DNA from: Marinococcus luteus
Lineage (GTDB): Bacteria > Bacillota > Bacilli > Bacillales > Marinococcaceae
Length of the DNA stretch: 64,000 bases
Assembly: GCF_900106595.1 (NCBI RefSeq)
Contig: NZ_FNNC01000005.1
Location: 62,001 to 126,000, forward strand
Direction: 5' to 3'
Both the position numbers and the translations under genes were made by a program. Below the pieces are notes generated by a model. That model worked only from the letters and a program-made list of their open reading frames with translations. It made no database searches and had not been told where the DNA came from. Positions 647 through 22,744 of this stretch are shown here, piece after piece. Position 1 is the first letter of the stretch. Every line of letters starts with the position of its first letter.

Positions 647-2365
647 TTATTGATATTCAAGCTGCACACTGTTCAGCGAAGCGAAAACGCCGTTTTTATG
701 GATCAGCTCTTCGTACGTTCCCTGCTCAGCAATGCGGCCGCCGGTCACCACCACAATATTATCGGCATGGCGGATGGTCGCAAGCCGGTGGGCAATTACA
801 ATCGTCGTCCGGTTCTCCGCCAGCTGGGTCAGCGACTGCTGAATCAGTGCTTCGGTTTCCGTATCGAGCGCTGAGGTCGCTTCATCCAAAATTAAAATCG
901 GCGGGTTCTTCAAGAAAGCCCGCGCAATTGCAATCCGCTGCTTCTGACCTCCGGAAAGCTTTAACCCCCGCTGGCCGATTTCTGTTTCATACCCATCCGG
1001 AAGCTCCTCCACAAAGCCGTCCAGATTCGCCAGCCGGGCGGCTTCTTCAATCTCTTCTTCTTCCGCCGTTAAACGTCCGTAAGCGATATTTTCCTTCAAC
1101 GTGCCGTTAAACAAAAACACGTCCTGCTGCACCATGCCGATCTGCGAACGCAGAGATTCTTTTGTCATCTTCCGGATATCTATACCGTTAATAGTCACGG
1201 CACCGGCGTCCACATCGTAAAATCGCGGAATCAGTGAGCTGATTGTCGTCTTCCCGGCGCCGGAGGAGCCGACAAAGGCAACTGTTTTTCCGGCTTGTAC
1301 CGTTACGTTCATGTCCCGCAGCACCGGCTGGCTTTCATGATACCCAAACGTGACATCCTCGAGCTTAATGTCACCTGTAAGCACCGGAGCCTCTACTGCA
1401 TCAGGGTGGTCGACAATATCTTTCTCTGCATCTGTCATCTGCACGAACCGTTTAAAACCGGCCATTCCCTTCGGATACAGCTCTAAAATGGCACTGATTT
1501 TCTCAATCGGCTTGAACAGCACGTTCACGTACAAAATAAAGCCGACAAACTCTCCGTTTGTAATAGCACCTGTGTAAACGAGCCATGCGCCGTAAACAAG
1601 CACAGCCAGAATCATGAGACGGGTTGTTAAGAAAATAGTCGCCGTGGTGTGGCCCATCGTGCGGTAGCCCGACAGCTTAGCCCGGCGGTACCGGTTGTTG
1701 TTTTTGGCAAACCGGTCGATTTCAAAGGCTTCATTTGTAAAGGACTGCACTACCCGCGCCCCGGAGACGCTGTCCTCCACCCGGGCGTTCACGTCACCGA
1801 TTTCTGCATACATTTTTGTCCAGGCTTTGTTCATTTGAATGTTCGTATAGGTAATAAGTGCAATCAAAAACGGCACAAAAACAAGAGCCACAAGGGCAAG
1901 CTGCGGATTAATCGAAAACATAATCGTAAAAGCGCCCGCAAACGTCATAATGGCAATAAACAAATCCTCCGGCCCGTGATGGGCAAGCTCTCCAATATCA
2001 AACAAATCGTTAGTGATGCGGCTGATAATGTGGCCGGTTTTCGTATTATCAAAGAAACGGTACGACTGGCCCTGCACGCTCTTGAACAGCTCACGCCGCA
2101 TGTCCGTTTCAATGTTAATGCCAAGCTTGTGCCCCAGATAATTGACGATATACTGCAGATACGCGCTGAATAGGTAAATAGCAAGCAGGCCGGCTGAGAC
2201 CCACACGACCAGATTCCAATCCTCCTGGGGAAGCAGGGAATCAATAAACCACTGGACCACAAGCGGGAAGACCAGATCCAGTGCTGCAACAGCGATTGCG
2301 CTGAAAAAATCGATGAAAAAAAGCTGTTTATGAGGAAGGTAATAGGAATAAAAACGTTTAAGCAT
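647..2365 (-). CDS. ABC exporter, fused membrane and ATPase domains (YgaD-like)
   Basis: Half-transporter of the multidrug/lipid exporter class that would work as a homodimer in the cytoplasmic membrane. Residues about 15-300 form the six-helix ABC transmembrane domain, including the coupling region around ARVVQSF. The C-terminal ATPase has Walker A GSSGAGKT (about 366-373), a Q-loop, signature LSGGQ (about 468), Walker B with the catalytic Glu in LILDEATSALD, and the H-loop in IAHRLAT. Length of 572 fits the family. The N-terminus (MLKRFYSYY..HK) resembles B. subtilis YgaD. The ATG follows AGAGGAG at good spacing. It stands alone with its own terminator. Substrate unknown; multidrug and lipid export are both possible. 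Confidence 0.85.
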   Translation of the reverse strand: MLKRFYSYYLPHKQLFFIDFFSAIAVAALDLVFPLVVQWFIDSLLPQEDWNLVVWVSAGLLAIYLFSAYLQYIVNYLGHKLGINIETDMRRELFKSVQGQSYRFFDNTKTGHIISRITNDLFDIGELAHHGPEDLFIAIMTFAGAFTIMFSINPQLALVALVFVPFLIALITYTNIQMNKAWTKMYAEIGDVNARVEDSVSGARVVQSFTNEAFEIDRFAKNNNRYRRAKLSGYRTMGHTTATIFLTTRLMILAVLVYGAWLVYTGAITNGEFVGFILYVNVLFKPIEKISAILELYPKGMAGFKRFVQMTDAEKDIVDHPDAVEAPVLTGDIKLEDVTFGYHESQPVLRDMNVTVQAGKTVAFVGSSGAGKTTISSLIPRFYDVDAGAVTINGIDIRKMTKESLRSQIGMVQQDVFLFNGTLKENIAYGRLTAEEEEIEEAARLANLDGFVEELPDGYETEIGQRGLKLSGGQKQRIAIARAFLKNPPILILDEATSALDTETEALIQQSLTQLAENRTTIVIAHRLATIRHADNIVVVTGGRIAEQGTYEELIHKNGVFASLNSVQLEYQ

Positions 2366-2571: not shown

Positions 2572-2685
2572 TAGACAAATGAAGGAAATATGTTACTATA
2601 AATGCACTGAACGTCGTTAGGTATGTTGACCTTCCCGAAAACTTCCTAAGTTTCAGTATACAGCTGTAGAAGCTGTTTTTCTTTT
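2572..2685 (+). ncRNA. Candidate small RNA with a loop complementary to the oppA translation start
   Basis: A promoter-like sequence (TAGACA at 2572, 16-bp spacer, extended -10 TGtTACTAT at 2591-2599) predicts a start near 2606. The transcript would fold with CTGAA (2607-2611) pairing TTCAG (2652-2656) and TTAGG (2617-2621) pairing CCTAA (2645-2649). This leaves a C-rich loop at 2622-2644. It would end at a hairpin ACAGCT-GTAGA-AGCTGT (2660-2676) followed by TTTTTCTTTTT. There is no credible reading frame. The loop is complementary, with few mismatches, to the Shine-Dalgarno region of oppA (minus strand, about 19692-19717). C-rich loops that pair with ribosome-binding sites are typical of Gram-positive sRNAs such as RsaE/RoxS; no homology to those is claimed. 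The alternative is a relic of a duplicated oppA leader. Confidence 0.5.
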
Positions 2686-2705
2686 TATATGCGGCGCTGT
2701 ACGCC

Positions 2706-2746
2706 AAAAAGCCTGAAAGCATTGCTGCTTCCAGGCTCTTTTTTTG
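2706..2746 (-). terminator. Terminator of the choline transporter gene
   Basis: On the minus strand, AGCCTGGAAGCA pairs with TGCTTTCAGGCT and is followed by TTTTTT. The opposite strand also carries seven T, so it may stop transcription in both directions. Confidence 0.75.
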
Positions 2747-2749
2747 ATT

Positions 2750-4387
2750 TTATTTAGATGGCTGTTTTTCTAAAGCTTCATTGTCATTCCGCTCATGCGG
2801 CATAAGAAGCGGCTTCGGAACAGCCTTTTTCTTCGTAGCTTCAGAAACAACAAATATGAGAATAAACGCGATAATCACGATCACCGTACGGAAAGGGAAA
2901 AGTACAATCCCGTCTTCGATCATCGGGTACGGAAGAAAGACCGGCAGGCCGATCGCGGGCTCCCCGCCGCCAAGGCGTAAAAAGACAGATACAACAAATG
3001 CTGTAAGCGAACCGTACACATTCGCATTTTTATAAAACAAGGCCATCGTCAGCTGCGGGAACAAAATACAGAAAATCAAATCTGATGCAAGGTACCACAG
3101 TGTATATACACTTCCAACGTTTAAAGCAATCAACGTCGACGCCGCCCCGATGATCACGATCGAGGTCTTGATCACTTTTTTCAGTTCATCGTGGGAGGCT
3201 TTCGGACGAACCAGCGGGCGGTATATATTCCATGACGCCATCGAGGATGCAGACAGAATTGAGGAGTCCATGGAAGACATTACGGCTGCTGCAAGAGCCC
3301 CGAGGCCGATAGCCGCTACCCATCCCGGCGTCAGATGCTGAAGCACCTCCGGCAGTACCATAGCCGCTGTTTCCGGTGCTGAAGTACCAAAGGACGCCCA
3401 GTCAACGTTGTAGCCAATCATACCAATAAGAACAGCAGGGACAGCCGCAATAATACATACTACGCCGGCAATGATCGAAAACCACATAGCTGTTTTTTCA
3501 TTTTTAGCAGAAAGCACGCGCTGGAAATATACCTGCCAGGCAATGCCGCCGAAAATCAATAGAAAGGCATAATCCCACCAGTTCCAGAAATAGCTGCCCC
3601 ATTCGGGATGGTTCCACCCGTCAAGCGGTGGAAAAAGGTTCGCATAGGTGCCAAGATCCGCCTGATAATCGTTCCAGTTTACGCTCAGGCTGCCGGTGTT
3701 GCCAAAGGCAAACGGCAGCACAAGAAACAAACCGCCCAAAAGCAGAATCATCTGTAAAAGGTCTGTATAGGCAACCGCCCACATACCGCCAAATACGGTG
3801 TAGGCGATCGCAATAATGGCTGAAATGACAATCGACGTCGTAAAATCGATCCCTAAAATAGTACCGAATGTAGTCCCAAGCGCTGTCAGAATCGCGCCGC
3901 TCCAAAACATTTCACCCAGGAGCGCCGGAAGATACAGCAGACCGCCCATTTTCTTGCCAAACCGCTGCTCGAGCGGATCAATAATGGTTTTAAATTCATA
4001 GCGGCGCATTTTTCTCGCATAAAAAATACCGCCAATAATAAGACTAAGGGCATAACCCCACGGTGCCTGGGCCCACACAAGGCCGTCAACGTATGTTGAT
4101 TCTGCGGTCCCGTTAATATAACCGCCGCCTACCCAGGTGGCAGCCATGGTGAAAATCATGATCACAAGCGGGAGGCTCCGTTTGGCCACCATCATGTCGT
4201 CGAGAGAATCAGACTTTTTAGCGGCAAAATAGGCACCGACATAGTACATCAAAGCGTAGAAAACAAGCATGGCAATAAAGCCGCTCCACATGACTTCGTC
4301 ACCAGTAGCAATTATGTAAATCATGACCGCTGCTACCAGAAGGACGAATCCCAGACTCTTCAGTAAGTTTAAATTTTTCTCTATCAC
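2750..4387 (-). CDS. Sodium:solute symporter resembling the high-affinity choline transporter (CHT1) family
   Basis: Integral membrane symporter of the SSS family with about 13 helices. Several blocks recall animal CHT1/SLC5A7: TWVGGGYINGTAE near residue 90, WAQAPWGYALSLIIGG, the GGLLYLPALLGEMFW stretch, FQRVLSA, AAAVMSSMDSSILSASS and FLRLGGGEP. That family carries choline with sodium. The location beside gbsR and opposite gbsAB strongly supports choline as substrate, feeding glycine betaine synthesis. The likely start is the GTG at 4387, eight bases after GAGG; a GTG three codons upstream is too close to that site. The gene lies 72 bases after gbsR on the same strand, so the two are probably cotranscribed. 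The highly charged C-terminal tail is cytoplasmic. Bacillus species usually import choline with OpuB/OpuC ABC systems, so this arrangement is unusual. Confidence 0.82.
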   Translation of the reverse strand: MIEKNLNLLKSLGFVLLVAAVMIYIIATGDEVMWSGFIAMLVFYALMYYVGAYFAAKKSDSLDDMMVAKRSLPLVIMIFTMAATWVGGGYINGTAESTYVDGLVWAQAPWGYALSLIIGGIFYARKMRRYEFKTIIDPLEQRFGKKMGGLLYLPALLGEMFWSGAILTALGTTFGTILGIDFTTSIVISAIIAIAYTVFGGMWAVAYTDLLQMILLLGGLFLVLPFAFGNTGSLSVNWNDYQADLGTYANLFPPLDGWNHPEWGSYFWNWWDYAFLLIFGGIAWQVYFQRVLSAKNEKTAMWFSIIAGVVCIIAAVPAVLIGMIGYNVDWASFGTSAPETAAMVLPEVLQHLTPGWVAAIGLGALAAAVMSSMDSSILSASSMASWNIYRPLVRPKASHDELKKVIKTSIVIIGAASTLIALNVGSVYTLWYLASDLIFCILFPQLTMALFYKNANVYGSLTAFVVSVFLRLGGGEPAIGLPVFLPYPMIEDGIVLFPFRTVIVIIAFILIFVVSEATKKKAVPKPLLMPHERNDNEALEKQPSK

Positions 4388-4459
4388 AAGCAACACCTCA
4401 AGTTTTAATAAAATTCTAAATATTGCGAAAACGTTTCACAGAGAGATAAAGTATGGCTG

Positions 4460-5026
4460 TTATCTCTCTTTATCATCCTCTTCAACCGGAATATATTTAA
4501 ACAGCTCTCCCGTTTCAATAGACTCTACGAGACGACCCAGCCATTTGTAGTACTTAATCGACTGGCTGAGAATTCGCTGAATCTCCCGGGCTTCTTCTTT
4601 TATTGACTCTTCTGCTTCTTCCGACTGAATCAGCATGTCTAATTGTTTCCAGGCGCTTTCGATAGCGCTCAAATTCGTCCGTACTTCCCTCTCCCACTGC
4701 TGGGTAAAGAAGTTGGTGAAAAAACGGAAGAAATCCTTTTCGGCTACGTAGGTCTGCTTTCGCTTTCCGCGCCGGTGCGTTTTCTTTACGACGTTGAACT
4801 CCTGCAGCTTCCGTACACCAGTGCTCATACTCGGTTTACTCATTCCGAGTTTTTCTCTCATTTCATCCAGCGTCATATCGCCTTCAACATACATTGTCCC
4901 ATACAAAGTACCAACACTTCTTGTTACACCGTACAAATCCATGGTCTCTGCAAGGGAATCAATTATAATGTCTTTGGCGCTTTCGAGTGACTCCCTCCAT
5001 TCATCCTGGTGATGAGAATCAGTCAT
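4460..5026 (-). CDS. gbsR: GbsR-type transcriptional repressor of choline-to-betaine genes
   Basis: 188-residue MarR-related winged-helix protein of the GbsR family. The DNA-binding part covers about residues 50-100 (MTLDEMREKLGMSKPSMSTGVRKLQ, then a basic wing HRRGKRKQTYV). An aromatic segment follows (KDFFRFFTNFFTQQW) and then helices for dimerisation. In B. subtilis GbsR senses choline and represses gbsAB and a choline importer; the same role is inferred here because it sits between a choline transporter and gbsAB. The ATG follows AAGGAGG. A possible promoter (TTGACA, 16 bp, TAAGAT) lies about 70 bases upstream on the minus strand, with a TTTAACAAA motif shared with the gbsAB leader. Confidence 0.85.
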   Translation of the reverse strand: MTDSHHQDEWRESLESAKDIIIDSLAETMDLYGVTRSVGTLYGTMYVEGDMTLDEMREKLGMSKPSMSTGVRKLQEFNVVKKTHRRGKRKQTYVAEKDFFRFFTNFFTQQWEREVRTNLSAIESAWKQLDMLIQSEEAEESIKEEAREIQRILSQSIKYYKWLGRLVESIETGELFKYIPVEEDDKER

Positions 5027-5153
5027 GGGCCCCTCCTTTTCTATTAAAAAAATTCAATTTGTTAAATATTTTCTTCACAGTCTCTAATCTTAACGTATAA
5101 AAATTTCTTGTCAAATCCCTAATCAAAAATATTAGCCTGCGAACTTTATGTTT

Positions 5154-5167
5154 ATTCCCCGGGAAAT
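5154..5167. other. Candidate Noc-binding site
   Basis: ATTCCCCGGGAAAT differs by one base from the B. subtilis Noc consensus ATTTCCCGGGAAAT. It lies in the gbsR-gbsA intergenic region. Confidence 0.45.
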
Positions 5168-5282
5168 AAAAAGCTTTCGGGTATATTCGCACGCGCGCGA
5201 GAGAAGCCTGTAAATCTTTTTTAAATTTATTTATTTAAGGGCGGTCTCTTCCTTCATTATCAAAAAATTACACGGCAGGTCT

Positions 5283-5311
5283 TTGACAAGATGTTCGAAA
5301 GCTGTTAGATT
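5283..5311 (+). promoter_or_regulatory. Promoter of gbsAB
   Basis: TTGACA at 5283-5288, 17-bp spacer, TAGATT at 5306-5311: a good SigA-type promoter about 60 bases before the gbsA start. Confidence 0.7.
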
Positions 5312-5325
5312 TAAGTTGTTCAAAA

Positions 5326-5356
5326 CGTTAAATAATTTTTTAACAAAGTTAACGAA
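5326..5356. promoter_or_regulatory. Candidate GbsR operator in the gbsA leader
   Basis: Interlocking inverted repeats (GTTAAA..TTTAAC and CGTTAA..TTAACG) lie between the gbsA promoter and its ribosome-binding site, where a bound repressor could block elongation. TTTAACAAA also occurs in the gbsR leader on the other strand (about 5052-5062). Assignment to GbsR is inference from position and repetition. Confidence 0.4.
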
Positions 5357-5372
5357 TAGGAGGCACACACAT

Positions 5373-6839
5373 ATGGATATTCGCATGTACATCGACGGCG
5401 AGTGGGTGGACGCTGCTAACGGCGAAACCCGGGACATCATTAATCCGCTTGACCAAAGCGTTATTACGCAGGCAGCGGAAGGCTCCCGCGAGGACGCTGT
5501 AAAAGCAGTACAGGCTGCCCGCCGTGCATTTGATAAAGGACCATGGGCCGCTACGCCCGCTTCAGAGCGCGGAGCTTACGTATTAAAGGTTGCCCAGCTT
5601 ATTGAGCGGGATAAAGAAGAACTCGCAGAACTCGAAACGCTCGATACTGGTAAAACAATGGGAGAAAGCCGTGCCGATATGGATGATATCGCCGGAGTGT
5701 TCCATTACTTTGCCGGCCTTGCTGATAAAGACGGCGGCGAATACATTGCTTCCCCGCTTCCGGACTCGGACAGCAAAATCGTCCGCGAGCCTGTCGGCGT
5801 GTGCGGCCAAATCACTCCTTGGAACTATCCCCTGCTGCAGGCAGCATGGAAGATCGCACCGGCTATTGCGACTGGAAACACCATCATCGTAAAACCAAGT
5901 GAGATTACGCCGCTTACGACCGTCAAGGTATTCCAGTTGATGGAAGAAGCCGGTCTTCCGGCAGGCGTTGCCAACCTGGTTCTCGGGAAAGGCACTGACG
6001 TAGGTGCGGAGCTTTCCGAAAGCGTGGACGTGGACCTGATTTCCTTTACAGGCGGTATTGAAACCGGCCGTAAAATCATGCAGTCCGCCACCTCCAATAT
6101 GAAAAAAATCGCACTTGAGCTTGGCGGTAAAAACCCTAACATTGTTTTCGCCGATGCCGATTTCGATCTTGCCGTGGACCAGGCCTTAAATGCCGCTTTC
6201 TTCCACGCCGGGCAGGTTTGTTCTGCCGGAGCACGACTGCTGGTGGAAGAATCCATCCATGACGATTTCGTCAAAGCGATCGTCGACCGGGTGAAAAACA
6301 TTCGTCTCGGCAGCGGCCAGGATGAAGAAACACAGATGGGACCGCTCATTTCCGCGGAGCACCTGAGCAAGGTCGAAAATTATATAGAAATTGGTAAACA
6401 GGAAGGGGCAACAGTTGCTGTCGGCGGCGGACGTCCGGACGACAAAACGCTCCAAAAAGGATTCTTCCTTCTGCCGACGATCTTTACTGACTGCCGCTCG
6501 GACATGAGAATCGTGCAGGAAGAAATCTTCGGCCCGGTACTCACCGTGGAAACCTTCACTTCTGAAGAAGAAGCCGTGGAAAAAGCGAACGACACCGTTT
6601 ACGGTCTTGCCGGCGCTACGTTTACAACAGACATCAGCAAAGCAGAGCGAGTGGCCTCCGGTCTCCGTCTTGGTACGGTCTGGATCAACGACTTCCACCC
6701 TTACTTTGCCCAGGCACCGTGGGGCGGCTACAAGCAGTCCGGCATTGGCCGTGAACTTGGTAAAGTCGGCATGGAAGAGTACACCGAAACAAAACACATC
6801 TTCCGTAACACTAATCCGGAAGCTCTGAACTTTTTCTAA
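5373..6839 (+). CDS. gbsA: Betaine-aldehyde dehydrogenase
   Basis: Oxidises glycine betaine aldehyde to glycine betaine with NAD(P), the second step of osmoprotectant synthesis from choline; cytosolic. The protein has 488 residues, as in B. subtilis GbsA (490). Aldehyde dehydrogenase landmarks: TPWNYPLLQ in the coenzyme fold, catalytic Glu in LELGGKNPNIVF (about 255), catalytic Cys in FFHAGQVCSAG (about 289), and EEIFGPVL. The ATG at 5373 follows AGGAGG; longer upstream frames run through the promoter and are not real. gbsB follows 132 bases downstream. The gene runs against the replication fork, unlike most neighbours. Confidence 0.93.
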   Translation: MDIRMYIDGEWVDAANGETRDIINPLDQSVITQAAEGSREDAVKAVQAARRAFDKGPWAATPASERGAYVLKVAQLIERDKEELAELETLDTGKTMGESRADMDDIAGVFHYFAGLADKDGGEYIASPLPDSDSKIVREPVGVCGQITPWNYPLLQAAWKIAPAIATGNTIIVKPSEITPLTTVKVFQLMEEAGLPAGVANLVLGKGTDVGAELSESVDVDLISFTGGIETGRKIMQSATSNMKKIALELGGKNPNIVFADADFDLAVDQALNAAFFHAGQVCSAGARLLVEESIHDDFVKAIVDRVKNIRLGSGQDEETQMGPLISAEHLSKVENYIEIGKQEGATVAVGGGRPDDKTLQKGFFLLPTIFTDCRSDMRIVQEEIFGPVLTVETFTSEEEAVEKANDTVYGLAGATFTTDISKAERVASGLRLGTVWINDFHPYFAQAPWGGYKQSGIGRELGKVGMEEYTETKHIFRNTNPEALNFF

Positions 6840-6857
6840 ACAACCAGCAAAAAATAC

Positions 6858-6890
6858 GGCGTCCTCCGGTTACACCGGTTGACGCCTTCT
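6858..6890 (+). terminator. Hairpin between gbsA and gbsB
   Basis: GGCGTC..CCGGT and ACCGG..GACGCC form a long hairpin followed by a poor T run (TTCTTAT). It probably reduces read-through from gbsA into gbsB, or protects the gbsA message, rather than fully stopping transcription. Confidence 0.5.
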
Positions 6891-6915
6891 TATAGACACA
6901 AACCCCATAAATAAT

Positions 6916-6944
6916 TTGCACCAAACCCCAACTATTTCTATATT
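6916..6944 (+). promoter_or_regulatory. Possible separate promoter of gbsB
   Basis: TTGCAC at 6916, 17-bp spacer, TATATT at 6939, about 28 bases before the gbsB start. With the hairpin after gbsA it suggests gbsB may be partly independent. Confidence 0.45.
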
Positions 6945-6971
6945 ATGAAGTATTTTAAGGAGGATTTTCTC

Positions 6972-8180
6972 ATGAGCATGAATATGAAAGTCGAAAGCAT
7001 GTTAAGCTATCACACATTTGAAGTACCAACAGCAATCAAACACGGCATCGGTGCCATCAAACATATCGGTGAAGAAATCAAAGCTCTCGGCTCTGACAAA
7101 GTATTACTCGTCACAGACCCGGGCATCCACAATGCAGGCGTAACAAAGCCTGTTATCGAAAACCTTGAAGCTTCCGGTGTAGAGGTTGTGCTCTTCAATA
7201 AAGTAGAGCCGAACCCTCCCGTACGCCTGATTGAAGAAGGATCCAAATTTTACACAGCAGAAAACTGCAACGGCCTGGTCGCTGTCGGCGGCGGAAGCTC
7301 GATGGATACTGCAAAGGCCATCGGTGTTGAGGCTACCCACGAAGGCTCGATTCTCGATTATGAAGCTGCCGAAGGCAAAAAGCCCCTGGAGCACCGCATT
7401 CCTCCATTCATCACCGTACCAACAACGGCAGGAACCGGCTCTGAAGTAACCCAGTGGGCGGTAATCACAGACGAAGACCGCGAATTTAAATTCAACACCG
7501 GCGGCCCGCTCATCCCGGCATACGTAACCATCATCGATCCGGAGCTTCACGTATCCATGCCTCCGCATGTAACTGCAATGACCGGTATTGATGCGATCGC
7601 TCACGCGGTTGAATGCTATACAATGAAATTCGCCCAGCCTGTCACAGACGCAGTAGCCCTTCTTGCGATTGAGTACGCTGCAAAATATATCCGCCGCGCC
7701 TATGCCGACGGTGAAGACCTTGAAGCTCGCTACGGCATGGCCCAGGCAGCTATGCTTGCAGGCCTTTCCTACGGCAGTGAATCTGCCGGCGCTGCGCACG
7801 CCATGAGCCAGACGCTTGGCGGTATCATTCCAGTAGCACATGGCCAGTGCGTGGCAGCTATGATGGGACCGGTAATGGAATACAACTGGAAAGGTGCACC
7901 AGAGCGTTTTGCACGTGTCGCCCAGGCATTTGGCATCGACACGGCACGCATGAGCACCGAAGAAGCAGCTAAAGCTTCTGTACAGTATATGTATGATCTC
8001 GCGGAAGAGCTCGATATTCCTTCTCTTGAAGAGCAGGGCGTAAATCCTGACATGACAGAGCGTCTTGCCAAAGAAGCAATGAACGACCCGCAGACAGAGG
8101 GCAACCCTCGCGACTTGAAAGTATCCGACTACGAGTGGATCTACAAGCGCTGCTTCCATCAGGTGCCAAAAACCGTTTAA
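6972..8180 (+). CDS. gbsB: Choline dehydrogenase, type III iron-dependent alcohol dehydrogenase
   Basis: Oxidises choline to glycine betaine aldehyde, the first step of betaine synthesis; soluble and NAD-dependent. The product has 402 residues, the length of B. subtilis GbsB. Family marks: NAD-binding GGGSSMDTAKA (about 97-107), TTAGTGSE near 145, and metal-ligand segments GIDAIAHAVECY (Asp and His), GAAHAMSQTLGG and the PVAHGQC histidine. The ATG at 6972 follows AAGGAGG; an upstream in-frame ATG at 6945 lacks such a site and overlaps the possible promoter. Together with gbsA, gbsR and the adjacent transporter it forms a complete choline uptake and oxidation module. Confidence 0.93.
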   Translation: MSMNMKVESMLSYHTFEVPTAIKHGIGAIKHIGEEIKALGSDKVLLVTDPGIHNAGVTKPVIENLEASGVEVVLFNKVEPNPPVRLIEEGSKFYTAENCNGLVAVGGGSSMDTAKAIGVEATHEGSILDYEAAEGKKPLEHRIPPFITVPTTAGTGSEVTQWAVITDEDREFKFNTGGPLIPAYVTIIDPELHVSMPPHVTAMTGIDAIAHAVECYTMKFAQPVTDAVALLAIEYAAKYIRRAYADGEDLEARYGMAQAAMLAGLSYGSESAGAAHAMSQTLGGIIPVAHGQCVAAMMGPVMEYNWKGAPERFARVAQAFGIDTARMSTEEAAKASVQYMYDLAEELDIPSLEEQGVNPDMTERLAKEAMNDPQTEGNPRDLKVSDYEWIYKRCFHQVPKTV

Positions 8181-13744: not shown

Positions 13745-14677
13745 TTATACCGGCGCCTGCTGCTGCATCTCTTCAAATTCTTTACTTGTGCACAGCACGT
13801 AGTGATCTTTTGTTACTTCCCGGAACTCAGGCTCTTCGCTCTGGTCATGATCTTCCGGGTTATAAGCAAGACGGCGTCTTGTGCGCTCGTGTACCGGATC
13901 CGGCTGCGGAATAGCGGACAGAAGTGATTTCGTATACGGATGCAGCGGATTTCTGTACAGCTCTTCACTCGAAGCAAGCTCCACCAGCCGGCCGAAATAC
14001 ATGACACCAATACGGTCGCTGATATATTTTACCATGGACAGGTCGTGGGCAATAAACAAGTACGTTAAATCCTCTTCCCGCTGAAGCTTTTTCATTAAGT
14101 TGACGACCTGTGCCTGAATCGACACATCGAGAGCCGAAATAGGTTCATCGGCAATGATAAATTCCGGCTTCACAGCAAGCGCCCGTGCAATCCCGATCCG
14201 CTGGCGCTGGCCCCCGCTGAATTCGTGTGGATAGCGCTCTGCATGCTCCCTGCTCAGCCCCACCGTTTCGAGCAGCTCATACACACGCTGGCGCCGCTCC
14301 TCTTTATCGTTTGCAAGGCCGTGAATGTCAATGCCTTCCGCGATAATATCAATGACCTTCATCCGCGGGTTCAGCGAGGAATACGGATCCTGGAAAATCA
14401 TCTGCATCTGGCGGTTAAACTTTTTCAGCTCCGTCTTGGATTTTTTCCCCTGAACATTTTCTCCCTTGAACAAAACCTCGCCGCTCGTCGCTTCATACAG
14501 ACGGATAATCGAGCGCCCGGTCGTTGACTTTCCGCAGCCCGATTCTCCTACAAGGCCGAACGTTTCCCCTTTGTATATATCAAAATTCAAGCCATCGACT
14601 GCCCGCACGACACTCTTTCTGCCTGTTTTGAAGTGCTGGCTCAGATTTTTGATTTCCAATAATTTCTCATCGCTCAT
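13745..14677 (-). CDS. oppF: Oligopeptide ABC transporter ATPase OppF
   Basis: One of two cytoplasmic ATPases that drive peptide uptake by OppABC. 310 residues from the ATG at 14677 (RBS GGGAGG, overlapping the end of oppD). Walker [10 protein letters not shown] (about 42-50), signature FSGGQRQR, Walker [13 protein letters not shown], and H-loop AHDLS. The OppF-type C-terminus has the [16 protein letters not shown] segment found in dipeptide/oligopeptide ATPases. Last gene of oppABCDF. Confidence 0.95.
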
Positions 14678-14679
14678 AT

Positions 14680-15732
14680 TTACTGTCCTGCCTCCCATTT
14701 CCCGTCCATCTCCTCAATGCGCTGCTGTACTGAGGCGGGTGGTTGTACGTCCGGTGAATTTTCGTGCAGCAGCCATGTCGCTGCGTAATGCGTCTCAGAG
14801 ACCTGAAACATCGGCGGCTGCTCTTCGTAATCAATTTTTAATGCGTACCGGTTCCGGGGAGCAAAAGCATCCCCTTTGGGCGGATGAAGCAGATCCGGAG
14901 GCGTTCCCGGGATGGCAAATAATTCTTCCTCGCGCTGATCCACTGTCGGCATGGAGCCGAGCAGCCCCCATGTATAAGGGTGCTTGGGATTATAGAAAAG
15001 TTCATCGACAGCGCCGATTTCTACAATTTTACCAGCGTACATGACTGCCACCCGGTCCGCCACATTTGCAACAACACCCAGGTCGTGCGTAATGAAAATG
15101 ATCGAGGTTTCAAACTCTTCCTGAATATCTTTCATAATATCGAGAATCTGCGCCTGAATTGTTACGTCGAGCGCTGTTGTCGGCTCGTCCGCGATCAATA
15201 CCTTCGGGTCGCAGGCAAGAGCAATGGCAATGACCACCCGCTGGCGCATACCGCCGGAAAACTGGTGCGGATACTGATCCATTCTTGCCTTCGCGTCCGG
15301 AATCCGGACCAGCTCCAGAAGCCGTACCGCTTCTGTTTTCGCTTCCTCTTTGTTCATTCCGCGGTGCATCCGCAGCCCTTCCATCACCTGCGTTCCTACC
15401 TTCATCGTCGGATTCAGGGAGGTCATGGGATCCTGGAAAATCATCGCAAAATCCTTACCGCGGTATTTGGTCATCTGCTTATCGCTCAGCTTGGCAAAAT
15501 CCTCATCCCCATATAGAATATTGCCGTTTTTAATATACCCCTTCGGTGCCGGAAGCAGTCCCATCAGCGCCTTTGTCGTTACCGATTTGCCCGATCCGGA
15601 CTCGCCTACGATCGCCAGGGTCTCCCCTTTTCCGACTGAAAAACTAATGTCTCTTACCGCCTGAACTTCACCGTTGGCAGTTTTAAAGGAAACACTTAAA
15701 TTTTTCACTTCTAAAATGGTTTCATTACTCAT
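14680..15732 (-). CDS. oppD: Oligopeptide ABC transporter ATPase OppD
   Basis: Partner ATPase to OppF. 350 residues from the ATG at 15732, preceded by GGGAGG. Walker A GESGSGKS (about 38-45), signature FSGGMRQR, Walker [13 protein letters not shown] and H-loop THDLG. The C-terminal part has [12 protein letters not shown] and a Pro-rich segment ([17 protein letters not shown]). The Cys cluster present in many OppD proteins for an iron-sulfur site is absent. Two bases separate its stop from oppF. Confidence 0.95.
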
Positions 15733-15750
15733 GTTCGTTCCTCCCACATT

Positions 15751-16905
15751 CTAATCGCGCATCTTCGGATCAAACGCATCACGCATACCATCAGCCAAAA
15801 TGTTAAAGGCAATCATTAACACCGACAGCACGACGGCCGGGAATATTAATACGTGCGGCGTAGTCTGCAGAGCATCAAAGCCGTTATCAATCAACACCCC
15901 GAGCGAAGCATTCGGCGCCTGGAGCCCCAGGCCGATAAAGCTTAGAAAAGCTTCGAAGAAAATCGCATTCGGAATCGTAAACATTGTGTTTATAATGATT
16001 AAGCCTAATGTATTTGGCACCAAATGCCTTGTAATAACTTTGGAGTTAGATAAACCAAGCGTCTGGGAAGCCAGCACAAACTCTTCATTTTTCAGCTTTA
16101 AGATTTCTCCCCGGACAATACGCGACATGCCGATCCATCCGGTAATTGCAATCGCTAGTGATATGGAAAGAATACCTGGGTCCAGGACAACAATCATCAA
16201 AATTAAAATAACCAAATTCGGTATACCGGAGAGAATTTCGAGTATTCTTTGCAGAATGTTATCCGTCCTTCCACCAAAGAAACCGGAAATACCGCCGTAG
16301 GCGACACCGATAAACAAATCAAGCAGCGTTGCAATCAGGGCAATGTAGAGCGATACCCTTGTACCGTCCCACGTTCTAGTCCACTGATCGCGGCCGAGCC
16401 GGTCTGTACCAAACCAGAAGTTCTCTTCCACCCCGGCTTCTGCATAAGTATCAACACTCGCCTGAACCTGAGCGGACCCTACAGAACCATCGCCTTCACT
16501 CAGCGTTTCATATTCTACATAGTCCCCTTCACCGAAACGGCTCTCAGCGTTCATCTGCGCCTGCTCGGCAGAGATATGTTCAAACACGTATGTTTCCTGG
16601 CCGTCCATATTTAAAAACCCAATGTTTTCTAAAACAGGTGCTTTTGGAGGCAGGTTGGACCTCGATAGATCCTGCTCTCGCGGCGTGTATTCATTCATCA
16701 TTGGGCCAAATATCGCGAGCAGCGTAATTAATACTAAAGCGGCCAGGGAAATCATGGCTGCTACGTTTTTGCGTAAGGCACGGAACGCATCCTGCCAAAA
16801 CGTCCGGCTCTGGCGGTTGATTTTCTCTGTTTCTTCTTCATTGACGTCTGCCGGGGAAAACAATTCTTTATTATATTTTTTTTCTTTATCATTTTCGTGC
16901 TGCAT
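15751..16905 (-). CDS. oppC: Oligopeptide ABC transporter permease OppC, enlarged external loop
   Basis: Membrane permease subunit pairing with OppB. 384 residues against about 305 in B. subtilis OppC. The core from about 180 on carries six-helix BPD_transp_1 sequence with the EAA-type loop near GWIGMSRIVRGEILKLKNEEFV. After the first membrane helix (VAAMISLAALVLITLLAIFG) comes an extracytoplasmic loop of roughly 100 residues, rich in Glu and Gln, before FWFGTDRLGRD. Acidic external sequence fits a saline or alkaline habitat. The ATG at 16905 follows GGAGGG inside the oppB end. Confidence 0.93.
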   Translation of the reverse strand: MQHENDKEKKYNKELFSPADVNEEETEKINRQSRTFWQDAFRALRKNVAAMISLAALVLITLLAIFGPMMNEYTPREQDLSRSNLPPKAPVLENIGFLNMDGQETYVFEHISAEQAQMNAESRFGEGDYVEYETLSEGDGSVGSAQVQASVDTYAEAGVEENFWFGTDRLGRDQWTRTWDGTRVSLYIALIATLLDLFIGVAYGGISGFFGGRTDNILQRILEILSGIPNLVILILMIVVLDPGILSISLAIAITGWIGMSRIVRGEILKLKNEEFVLASQTLGLSNSKVITRHLVPNTLGLIIINTMFTIPNAIFFEAFLSFIGLGLQAPNASLGVLIDNGFDALQTTPHVLIFPAVVLSVLMIAFNILADGMRDAFDPKMRD

Positions 16906-16911
16906 AATATC

Positions 16912-17838
16912 TTATTTCCCTCCATCCAGGCGGATTCTCGGATCGATGATGCCGTAAAGAATATCAATGATTAAAATGATCAGAACGAACAAGAAACTGA
17001 AAAACAGCGTCGTTCCCATAATCATTGGATAATCGTTAGTCGTTACAGCTGTGACAAACTGTTCCCCGATCCCCGGCACCGCAAAGATCTGCTCGATAAC
17101 AAGCGTTCCGGTCAACAGACTGACTGCAAGCGGACCGAGCACTGTAATTAATGGAATCAAAGCATTACGAAGCCCGTGCTTCAAAATTACAGAAGACCAT
17201 TTAACCCCTTTGGCTCTCGCCGTCATAATATAATCCTTATTGAGCACTTCAAGCATCTCTGTACGCATAAACCTCGCACAAATCGCCATAGGGAATATTA
17301 ATAATGCGATTGTCGGCATAATAGTGTGGGCAAATGTGCCCCACGTGGCGACCGGCAATACCTGCCATTGCACGCCTAAGTAATATTGAAGAAGTCCTGC
17401 AAAAATAAAAGACGGAATGGAAGTTCCAATAACCGCAAGCAGCGTGGAACTAAAGTCTAAAATACCATTATGAAAAATAGCAGCAATCAACCCGAGGATG
17501 GCGCCTAAAAAAGAACCAATAATTAACGACTGAATCCCGAGCTGCAGAGACGGGCCAATCCGGTTCTCAAGTATCGATGAAACGTCCCGGTTATCGAACT
17601 GAAAAGAAACCCCCAGGTCTCCCTGGACGAGGCCAAGCATGTAGTCAACATATTGCAGCGGCACCGGCTTGTCCAACCCGTACTGCTCCAGCACAATCTG
17701 CTGCTGGGCTTCGGGTAGGCGGTCGGCAGCGCTCAGCGGTGTCCCCGGCATTAATTTCATAAGAAAGAATGTAATACTGGCGATAATAAAGAGCGTGATC
17801 ACCATGTAGACAATTCTTGTGACAATGTAACGAGCCAT
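16912..17838 (-). CDS. oppB: Oligopeptide ABC transporter permease OppB
   Basis: Membrane permease subunit. 308 residues, normal size; N-terminal helix YIVTRIVYMVITLFIIASI, five further helices, and the conserved cytoplasmic loop MRTEMLEVLNKDYIMTARAKG that contacts the ATPases. The ATG follows AAGGAGG. It is separated from oppA by 146 bases containing a strong hairpin, which probably sets the lower level of permease message relative to the binding protein. Confidence 0.95.
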   Translation of the reverse strand: MARYIVTRIVYMVITLFIIASITFFLMKLMPGTPLSAADRLPEAQQQIVLEQYGLDKPVPLQYVDYMLGLVQGDLGVSFQFDNRDVSSILENRIGPSLQLGIQSLIIGSFLGAILGLIAAIFHNGILDFSSTLLAVIGTSIPSFIFAGLLQYYLGVQWQVLPVATWGTFAHTIMPTIALLIFPMAICARFMRTEMLEVLNKDYIMTARAKGVKWSSVILKHGLRNALIPLITVLGPLAVSLLTGTLVIEQIFAVPGIGEQFVTAVTTNDYPMIMGTTLFFSFLFVLIILIIDILYGIIDPRIRLDGGK

Positions 17839-17916
17839 GTGCTTTTTTCCTCCTTGGAGATTTCATGATGTTTTTCTCTGATGTACAAATTTTGAAATTA
17901 ACAGGAAACAAGGGAA

Positions 17917-17954
17917 AAGAGAGTATAAGCCAATTATCATGGATATACTCTCTT
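17917..17954 (-). terminator. Intercistronic hairpin between oppA and oppB
   Basis: Perfect 11-bp arms AAGAGAGTATA / TATACTCTCTT with a 16-nt loop, followed on the minus strand by TTCCCTTG rather than a long T run. It likely acts as a partial terminator or as a 3' stabiliser of oppA message. Confidence 0.6.
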
Positions 17955-17984
17955 GCCCCCTGAAAATATTATTTTATTTAATTT

Positions 17985-19688
17985 TTATTCTTCTGTCGCA
18001 TCTTCGTTCATGTAGGCCCATTTGTATTCAAAGTCAGGACCGGCAGAGTTTACGATAACACCCTGCAGCGCCGGGTTCCAGAGGTAAGCCGTGGAGCGCT
18101 GATACAATGGTGAAATTGCGGCATCTTCTTCAATAAGAATCTGCTCCATTTGCAGGAAGTTGTCCCAGCGTGCTTCCGGCTCTGTAGCCAGCTCGCTGTT
18201 TGCTTCTTCAAGAAGGGAATCGTACTCCTCGCTTGAGTAGCCCATATGGTTATTTTCACCGTCGGTTTCAAACAGGTTCATGAATGTGTTTGGATCCACA
18301 TAGTCTGGTCCCCATCCGGCAAACTGCATGTCATAATCCATATTCGTGTCACGGTCCAGACGCTCCTGGAAAGGCACTTCCTGGACGTTAACAGTCAAGC
18401 CTTCAAGGTTAGTTTCCAGCTGTTCTTTAATATAGGCATTCGTATTCTGGGCTGTTTCTGTGTCATCTCCCAGGAAGCCAACTTCTACACTGTCAGAGCC
18501 AAGCTCTTCAAGGCCCTGCTCCCAGAGATCCTGAGCTTCATCTTTGTTTACTTCAGCAAGGTTTCCGTTCTGCTCACGGAAGTCTTCTTCACCGTCCGGG
18601 CTGAATACAAAGTTTGCAGGCATTAAGCCTTCAGCAGGAATAGAACCATTGTTCAGAATCGTGTTCGTTAATCCTTCTTTGTCCACAGACATTTGGATAG
18701 CTTTACGGATGTTTTCATTATCGAGGGCTTCGTTGCCTTCCTGGTTCATTTTAAGATAGAAAACAGTCGGCTCCTCTACCGTACGGAAATCCTGCTCCGT
18801 GCTGTATTCGTCCACAAATTCTGCACTAACTCCTGCACGGTCCACTTCGCCGGTATCGTAAAGGTTAACGCCGGTGGATACTTCTTTGACCACCTGAACG
18901 TTGATTTCTTCAAGCTGCACAGCGTCTGCATCCCAGTAGTCTTCGTTTTTCACAAACGACATGCTTTCACCCTGATTCCACTCTTCCATTGTGAATGGGC
19001 CGTTCGTCATCATGCTGTCCGGGCTCAAAGCATAATCATCTTCCTGCTCTTCAATAAATTCTTCATTTAATGGAAGGAAGGTTGGGAATGTAGCTAATGA
19101 TTCAAAGTAAGGCGTCGCTTTTTCAAGCGTTACTTCAAGCGTATAATCATCCACGGCCTCAACGCCCAGCTCTTCCGGATCTGCTTCGCCTTCACTGATC
19201 TCGGTAGCGTTGTCGATAACGCCGCCCATCATGTAAGGACCATATTCAGAAGCCGTTTCCGGATCCACGGCACGCTGCCAAGAATAAACGAAATCCTGAG
19301 CCGTGACAGGGTCACCGTTTGTCCAGGTGGCATCCTCCCGGAGGTTAAATGTATACGTTAGCGCGTCATCACTCACTTCCGGTTCTCCCGTGGCAATCCC
19401 TTCTTCTGTCTCTCCGTTTTCACCCAGACGGTAGAGACCTTCATAAATTTCCCCTGTCCACTGAATACCGTATGTATCTGTGGTGAGCGACGGGTCCATG
19501 GAAGGAATATCGGCAGACTGTGCCAGGTTGACTACCTGCTCCCCGCTTGCCTCGCCTTCGCCTCCTCCGTCACCACCGCCGTTGCCGCCGTCTCCGCCGG
19601 ACTCTCCGCCCCCGCCGCCGGAACACGCTGCGAGCACTGTGCTTGCTGTTAATGCAGAAGCTAATACTGTCATTTTTGTCTTTTTCAT
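17985..19688 (-). CDS. oppA: Oligopeptide-binding lipoprotein OppA
   Basis: Extracellular receptor of the importer, tethered to the membrane by lipid. 567 residues from the ATG at 19688 (RBS GGGGAGG, 12 bases before). Signal peptide KKTKMTVLASALTASTVL with lipobox LAAC (Cys at about 22), followed by a Gly/Ser/Asp/Glu-rich linker of about 30 residues. The mature domain is SBP_bac_5 (NLAQSADIPSMDPSLTTD near the start; GWGPDYVDPNTFMNLF near 435). It is strongly acidic, consistent with a halophile. The ribosome-binding region (19692-19717) is complementary to the candidate sRNA at 2606-2685. Confidence 0.94.
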   Translation of the reverse strand: MKKTKMTVLASALTASTVLAACSGGGGGESGGDGGNGGGDGGGEGEASGEQVVNLAQSADIPSMDPSLTTDTYGIQWTGEIYEGLYRLGENGETEEGIATGEPEVSDDALTYTFNLREDATWTNGDPVTAQDFVYSWQRAVDPETASEYGPYMMGGVIDNATEISEGEADPEELGVEAVDDYTLEVTLEKATPYFESLATFPTFLPLNEEFIEEQEDDYALSPDSMMTNGPFTMEEWNQGESMSFVKNEDYWDADAVQLEEINVQVVKEVSTGVNLYDTGEVDRAGVSAEFVDEYSTEQDFRTVEEPTVFYLKMNQEGNEALDNENIRKAIQMSVDKEGLTNTILNNGSIPAEGLMPANFVFSPDGEEDFREQNGNLAEVNKDEAQDLWEQGLEELGSDSVEVGFLGDDTETAQNTNAYIKEQLETNLEGLTVNVQEVPFQERLDRDTNMDYDMQFAGWGPDYVDPNTFMNLFETDGENNHMGYSSEEYDSLLEEANSELATEPEARWDNFLQMEQILIEEDAAISPLYQRSTAYLWNPALQGVIVNSAGPDFEYKWAYMNEDATEE

Positions 19689-19959
19689 AAGATATGTTGA
19701 CCTCCCCAAAACTTTCGATATTTTGTTGTGTAAAATTTCTGTTATCTCTGTATTTACAAAGTATACAAGATATTGCGAATATTTTCACTAATTTTTTGAT
19801 TTTTTGCGAAAATGAAAATTTATTCGCTTTGTCTATACGAAAAGCATTAATGTTTTTCCACACAGGGCAATTATTCGTAAATGAAATATTTCGTTCAGCG
19901 GCAGGCAGCAGTTGTGCTATAATAATGGGCGTTATAAAATTCCTGAAGGAGTTCCGTCT

Positions 19960-20383: not shown

Positions 20384-20842
20384 TTACTCAGAAGTTAAAT
20401 AAGAAAACGAATCCTTATACTGTTTTAATTCAACATTCACATCGGCGTTCAAAATTCCGTCAATTTGTGCTAAATCTCTGTTAACAAAATTCACTAAGTC
20501 CTCGTTATTTCTAAAATAAGCCTGTAAAATTAAATCATGATTACCAGAGAAAGCACCGACAAACCTTACTTCGGAAAAACGCTGAAGCCTACTCGCGATT
20601 TCGTCCTGCATCCCGAGCTTTGTGCTCAGCCCGATAATCGTCTGCACATCGAGCCCGATTTTGTTCGGATTGGTATGTATGATAAATTCAAAGACATTAT
20701 GCCGGAGCATTTTGTTAATTCTTGAACGGACAGTCCCCTCACTCACTCCCAGGCAGCGGGCAATTTCACTGTATGACTCCTTGCCGTTAGCCTGCAGATA
20801 CCCGAGTATCGACATATCTACCTGATCTAATGAAACACTCAT
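20384..20842 (-). CDS. Lrp/AsnC family transcriptional regulator
   Basis: 152-residue regulator. N-terminal helix-turn-helix (about 10-55, SEIARCLGVSEGTVRSRINKM) and C-terminal RAM/ACT-like ligand domain (about 70-145, GAFSGNHDLILQAYF). The start at 20842 follows AGAAGGG; longer in-frame starts are not supported. Lrp proteins sense amino acids; the lack of a linked target operon on the same strand leaves its role open, although the opp operon lies just downstream. Confidence 0.8.
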   Translation of the reverse strand: MSVSLDQVDMSILGYLQANGKESYSEIARCLGVSEGTVRSRINKMLRHNVFEFIIHTNPNKIGLDVQTIIGLSTKLGMQDEIASRLQRFSEVRFVGAFSGNHDLILQAYFRNNEDLVNFVNRDLAQIDGILNADVNVELKQYKDSFSYLTSE

Positions 20843-22494: not shown

Positions 22495-22738
22495 TATTAT
22501 AAAAAAGCCCCGCCCCTGTAAATCAGGGACGAGACTTTGATTTCCCGCGTTGCCACCCTCGTTGCAGTAAACGTTACTGCCGGCTTCTTCTCTCATCTGT
22601 TAACGGGGACGAACCGAAAACGGCTACTTAAGTTCACCGTTTTACTCCGGACGGGATTCCTTTCGCATTTTCATCGGTTCACACCAGCCACCGACTCTCT
22701 GAAGAAAAAAGCAAAAGTACTATTGTCCATCAACGCGA
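22495..22738 (-). promoter_or_regulatory. T-box riboswitch controlling serS
   Basis: The minus-strand leader carries the T-box sequence AGGGTGGCAACGCGGG (22544-22559), then a terminator (GTCTCGTCCCTG..CAGGGGCGGGGC and six T, about 22498-22535). Stem I has the conserved AGAGAGTCGGTGG start, and the specifier region reads GGAA-UCC-CGU with UCC (Ser) at 22654-22656. The UGGC bulge would pair with GCCA, matching the G discriminator of tRNA-Ser in this window. Uncharged tRNA-Ser should favour read-through into serS. Confidence 0.92.
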
Positions 22739-22744
22739 TTGTAT

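Follow-up and report, generated by a model that had tools for sequence, protein, structure and literature searches.

Analysis of a 64,000-nt stretch of the Marinococcus luteus genome (hereafter, the window) revealed an intergenic element whose predicted transcript is complementary to the translation start of oppA. We consider it likely that the element at 2606–2685 is a genus-specific, trans-acting small RNA that blocks the start of oppA translation and reduces oligopeptide uptake. It is a good candidate for a new sRNA, and its target within the window is unusually clear. Computation directly showed that the two RNAs can pair, that the pairing is specific, and that it is present in five genomes; transcription of 2606–2685, repression of oppA, and decay of the oppA mRNA are what we infer. 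The coordinates of the relevant features are listed in Table 1.

Table 1. Features of the candidate sRNA locus and of the oppA region in the window.
Feature	Position	Strand	Description	Basis
Putative promoter	2572–2599	+	-35 TAGACA, 16 bp spacer, TG-extended -10 TACTAT	9/12 matches, TG before the -10
Candidate sRNA	2606–2685	+	~80 nt, single copy	
Imperfect hairpin	2606–2657	+	outer stem ACTGAA/TTCAGT, inner stem TTAGG/CCTAA, 23-nt loop	MFE structure
Pairing segment for oppA mRNA	2614–2645	+		duplex prediction
Intrinsic terminator	2660–2685	+	ACAGCTGTAGAAGCTGT + TTTTTCTTTTT	hairpin 2660–2676 followed by a T-run
Separate bidirectional terminator	~2702–2745		boundary between the sRNA and the convergent symporter gene	T-run on both strands, by inspection
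oppA	17985–19688	-	lipoprotein solute-binding protein, first gene of oppABCDF (13745–19688)	
oppA mRNA pairing site	19685–19716	-	Shine-Dalgarno sequence (GGGGAGG) through start codon	duplex prediction; leader conserved in five genomes
Possible oppA promoter	19760–19788	-	GTGAAA-17-TATACT, leader of ~65 nt	such sites no commoner than in shuffles

The candidate locus is located between an ABC exporter gene (647–2365, minus strand) and a sodium:solute symporter gene (2750 to ~4396, minus strand). Any transcript of the element would come from the plus strand and run toward the symporter gene. The element is an intergenic orphan; since no gene follows it on the same strand, it is not an attenuator or a leader. 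Its start is expected near 2606. Sequence scans recovered both a putative promoter with a TG-extended -10 before the segment and the terminator after it, as the original prediction had described, and the claim that the element has no reading frame was borne out, with no ORF of at least 60 aa overlapping 2605–2685. In the other four Marinococcus genomes, the promoter occurs with the variants TGGACA, TAATAT, and TAACAT, and the TG is kept. The proposed stem-loop was obtained as the MFE structure, but its stability (z = -1.18 relative to shuffles) was not significantly above chance, and promoter-like sites in a scan of the locus were not enriched over shuffles; therefore, the promoter, hairpin, and terminator back the presence of a gene without proving it. 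A covariance model built for the element (R1) and BLAST found one copy in the window's genome. Another strong match to the loop in that genome (G000:C6:318992) was located inside a coding sequence and was rejected. A search of 2400–2780 against all Rfam families with E values up to 10 returned chance matches only.

The sequence TATGTTGACCT occurs exactly on the plus strand at 2622–2632 and 19693–19703, in agreement with the exact match to the oppA leader in the original prediction; it is found nowhere else in the window. The pattern GGGRAGGTCAACA has only two exact occurrences in the entire genome (2.9 Mb), one at the sRNA locus and one in the oppA leader; when up to two mismatches were allowed, the genome-wide total was no higher than that of the reversed control pattern. 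The match between the two sites had been described as containing one gap. The match itself was recovered, but the gap proved unnecessary, as the predicted duplex runs in register: 4 bp are followed, after one mismatch, by a helix of 22 bp and, beyond a 2x2 internal loop, by 3 bp, for a total of 29 bp and an energy of -40.6 kcal/mol. The 22-bp helix is uninterrupted, and some of its pairs are G.U. The duplex covers GGGGAGG and the spacer and, beyond the suggested reach to within a few bases of the ATG, also the ATG itself (19688–19686).

The strength of this pairing was compared with that of shuffled sequences. None of the 1500 dinucleotide shuffles of the segment reached the energy of the real duplex with oppA (mean -15.5, sd 3.2, best -27.8), and the best shuffle over the 58 genes of the window gave -38.8. 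With the accessibility costs of both RNAs included, the energy was -26.7 in the window's genome and ranged from -19.6 to -25.9 among the four sister genomes. In an all-against-all scan of intergenic segments and gene starts of the window, the sRNA–oppA pair ranked second by energy, beside G+C-rich tRNA/SRP segments; for this reason, energy within one window is not decisive by itself. Part of the pairing is made up of the generic anti-SD-like CCUUCCC.

The specificity of the pairing was further explored by a scan of 1240 gene starts from 1.26 Mb of sampled stretches, corresponding to 43% of the genome; the remaining 57% was covered by the GGGRAGGTCAACA pattern search and a BLAST search. Because a simple script assigned the starts from the longest ORFs and an SD score, some of them are wrong. 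Two outliers were detected, the start of a gene for an Lrp/AsnC-family regulator (-40.8) and that of oppA (-40.6), the latter ~10 kcal/mol beyond the third-ranked start (-31.0). For 120 shuffled segments, the best partner had a mean energy of -32.1 (sd 2.5, extreme -39.5) and the second-best partner a mean of -30.4 (sd 1.8, extreme -37.3). One partner of such strength is therefore unusual, and two such partners were never observed among the 120 shuffles. On the question of whether oppA is the top hit, the scan placed it as one of two outliers, with the regulator gene an equally strong predicted partner in this genome.

Both sides of the sRNA–oppA pair were found in all five Marinococcus genomes, with sister loci in M. 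halotolerans DSM 16375, M. halophilus KCTC 2843, and an uncultured Marinococcus. The other four copies of the element are 94–95% identical to that of the window, and the duplex predicted in each genome has an energy of -39.0 to -42.1. However, the flanks of the locus are ~92% identical between the sister genomes and the oppA leader is conserved over its whole length, so that conservation of the pairing is weak evidence when taken alone. The same low divergence within the genus leaves no informative covariation. The changes that do occur are compatible with pairing: the substitution of G2637 by A in the loop of one genome (G015), opposite U, converts G.U to A-U in the ungapped register, and an extra G in the oppA leader of another (G013) gives a longer 3' helix with the energy of -42.1. 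Among the five genomes, 3 of the 78 columns in 2605–2682 are variable, vs. 17 of 112 just upstream (Fisher p 0.015). In M. halophilus (G012, L005:1660–1849), homology upstream of the sRNA promoter stops near window position 2493, and the contig ends in a possible insertion-sequence end; the sRNA and its promoter are intact there.

The covariance search proposed for relatives gave nothing convincing outside the genus: across 397 genomes of the order, matches beyond Marinococcus scored 25–28 bits and were unlike the element. BLAST matches of the RNA in other genera were rejected as covering the terminator only or lying within coding sequence. The exact loop pattern was searched in 84,980 species, where the Bacillota matches comprised three Marinococcus records and one clostridial MAG and the rest belonged to unrelated phyla; for a pattern so short, the matches beyond Marinococcus are no more than chance would give. 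For the synteny of the symporter, a clear ortholog (79%) outside the genus was present only in G002 and G004, and neither of these genomes had an oppA match at 1e-60. In the nearest oppA from another genus (G027, 67% identity), the leader reads AAAACTGGGGGATTATTTAATG and lacks the pairing site. Since the RNA was not found outside the genus and this leader has no site, the sRNA–oppA pair appears to have originated in the Marinococcus lineage.

Given the second partner, oppA may not be the sole target. The gene at G000:C8:421894–422349 (L127:11894–12349) encodes a protein with AsnC_trans_reg and HTH domains and, by eye, is divergent to an EamA-type transporter gene. Its mRNA is predicted to pair through TTCGGGAGGG and GCATGCTTGATGACGT, with the Shine-Dalgarno sequence and the start codon covered, and the pairing core is kept in all five genomes within an otherwise variable leader. 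A real RNA that regulates amino-acid and peptide flux through both oppA and this regulator is on these grounds a tenable reading, although one we put at somewhat less than even chances. Against it, the duplex is weaker in the sister genomes (-30.4 to -36.9, and -7 to -17 with accessibility), and the loop change in G015 shortens it. In addition, the leader holds a conserved palindrome, CGAATATTATTCG; this may be an operator through which the regulator controls its own gene and would then provide another reason for the conservation of the core. The second partner is a lead rather than a result; were it real, peptide import would be linked through the RNA with an amino-acid regulator. The proposed role of a trans-acting repressor of peptide uptake agrees with the long in-register pairing, its specificity among the 1240 starts, and its occurrence in five of five genomes, but may describe only part of the function, because the Lrp/AsnC-type mRNA is an equally strong predicted partner.

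The similarity of the two sites might also reflect their origin, the segment being a decayed, functionless inverted copy of the oppA leader. The best alignment of both sites spans 40 bases with a single gap, which is longer than first described and would suit a duplication; however, no similarity extends beyond those 40 bases, and the departures of the sRNA from a perfect oppA complement are mostly G.U pairs. Moreover, the segment sits in a promoter–hairpin–terminator unit that is less variable than its upstream flank, and pairing with a second mRNA is predicted for it as well. A decayed duplicate might account for the origin of the segment, but for neither the promoter-to-terminator layout nor the second partner, and we regard a functionless copy as quite improbable. 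Even less credence is given to the binding of a DNA- or RNA-binding protein at both sites with incidental complementarity: both sites are conserved, and their opposite orientation relative to the transcripts would be tolerable for a DNA site, but the sequence is not palindromic, its core has just two exact occurrences genome-wide, and the oppA copy falls precisely over the Shine-Dalgarno sequence and the start codon. Finally, the transcript could encode a very short peptide, MLTFPKTS (ATG TTG ACC TTC CCG AAA ACT TCC TAA), and act as a leader. The single variable base within this frame (CCG/CCA) is synonymous; nevertheless, no Shine-Dalgarno sequence stands at a usable distance (AGG is one base before the ATG), and the strand carries no gene further downstream that could be attenuated, which makes this the least credible of the explanations considered. 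A Marinococcus-specific sRNA whose pairing segment possibly derives from an inverted oppA leader, and which controls oppA and the Lrp/AsnC-type regulator through one segment lying over both Shine-Dalgarno sequences and start codons, would combine several of these elements, and we hold it to be rather unlikely.

For the preferred reading, repression of oppA by a small RNA, the loop and the inner 5' stem arm (2614–2645) would form a duplex across the Shine-Dalgarno sequence and start codon of the oppA mRNA, which would block binding of the 30S subunit. The long helix would probably be exposed to RNase III, with possible cleavage. The predicted outcome is less OppA, and the candidate RNA probably lowers the uptake of oligopeptides in this way. 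Exclusion of the ribosome from the oppA start would follow the examples of RsaE and LhrC. In Listeria monocytogenes, LhrC1-5 (RF00616) base-pair to Shine-Dalgarno regions, including that of oppA, and lower expression, with the CU-rich loop shown to be used for lmo0484 (PMC5880928). Pairing to the Shine-Dalgarno region of oppA is likewise predicted for the Marinococcus RNA; however, LhrC is a multicopy family with a short CU-rich seed, whereas the Marinococcus RNA is a single copy with one long helix. The LhrC covariance model had no match at the locus (2400–2780, E up to 10); the genome-wide search gave no match in any genome, controls included, and is thus uninformative on the rest of Marinococcus. 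Initiation on opp3B and opp3A is stopped by RsaE, which pairs across their ribosome-binding sites (PMC3861533). The likeness to RsaE/RoxS of Staphylococcus and Bacillus (RF01820) lies in this pairing over opp ribosome-binding sites, but RsaE is conserved across Firmicutes genera, while the Marinococcus RNA is confined to one genus and is unrelated by sequence. The RF01820 model matched neither the locus nor any of the five Marinococcus genomes; the B. subtilis control was matched.

In enteric bacteria, GcvB regulates mRNAs of peptide and amino-acid transporters and represses oppA and dppA, acting through a G/U-rich region with Hfq on a broad regulon. A peptide transporter mRNA is a target of GcvB and the predicted target of the Marinococcus RNA, but GcvB is larger, and it was not among the matches at the locus in the search of all Rfam families. 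A literature search on sRNAs of Marinococcus found none. The RNA appears to be new, matching neither the LhrC nor the RsaE family, and its way of working is predicted to be of a known kind. Unrelated small RNAs control peptide uptake in Listeria, Staphylococcus, and enteric bacteria; another independently evolved case, in a halophile, would back the view that oppA has been recruited repeatedly as an sRNA target. Given its restriction to a single genus and its long, simple pairing, the Marinococcus RNA would be a clean case for studying the birth of an sRNA–target pair.

Several additional features of the window were observed. The products of oppABCDF carry the Pfam domains SBP_bac_5, BPD_transp_1, OppC_N, ABC_tran, and oligo_HPY. 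The OppA protein (17985–19688) is only 79–80% identical between Marinococcus species, vs. ~92% DNA identity around the sRNA, and the oppA leader is nearly invariant despite this divergence, which suggests a fast-evolving lipoprotein or a recombined gene. Another regulator gene of the Lrp/AsnC family (20384–20842) is located ~1 kb from oppA. In 2750–8180, the sodium:solute symporter gene lies next to genes for a GbsR-like regulator, an aldehyde dehydrogenase that probably acts on betaine aldehyde, and an alcohol dehydrogenase of the iron-containing type; the group resembles a choline-to-glycine-betaine cluster. In G013, further partial copies of the symporter gene were present on other contigs. 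A T-box leader (Rfam RF00230) was found at 22522–22742, directly before a seryl-tRNA synthetase gene.
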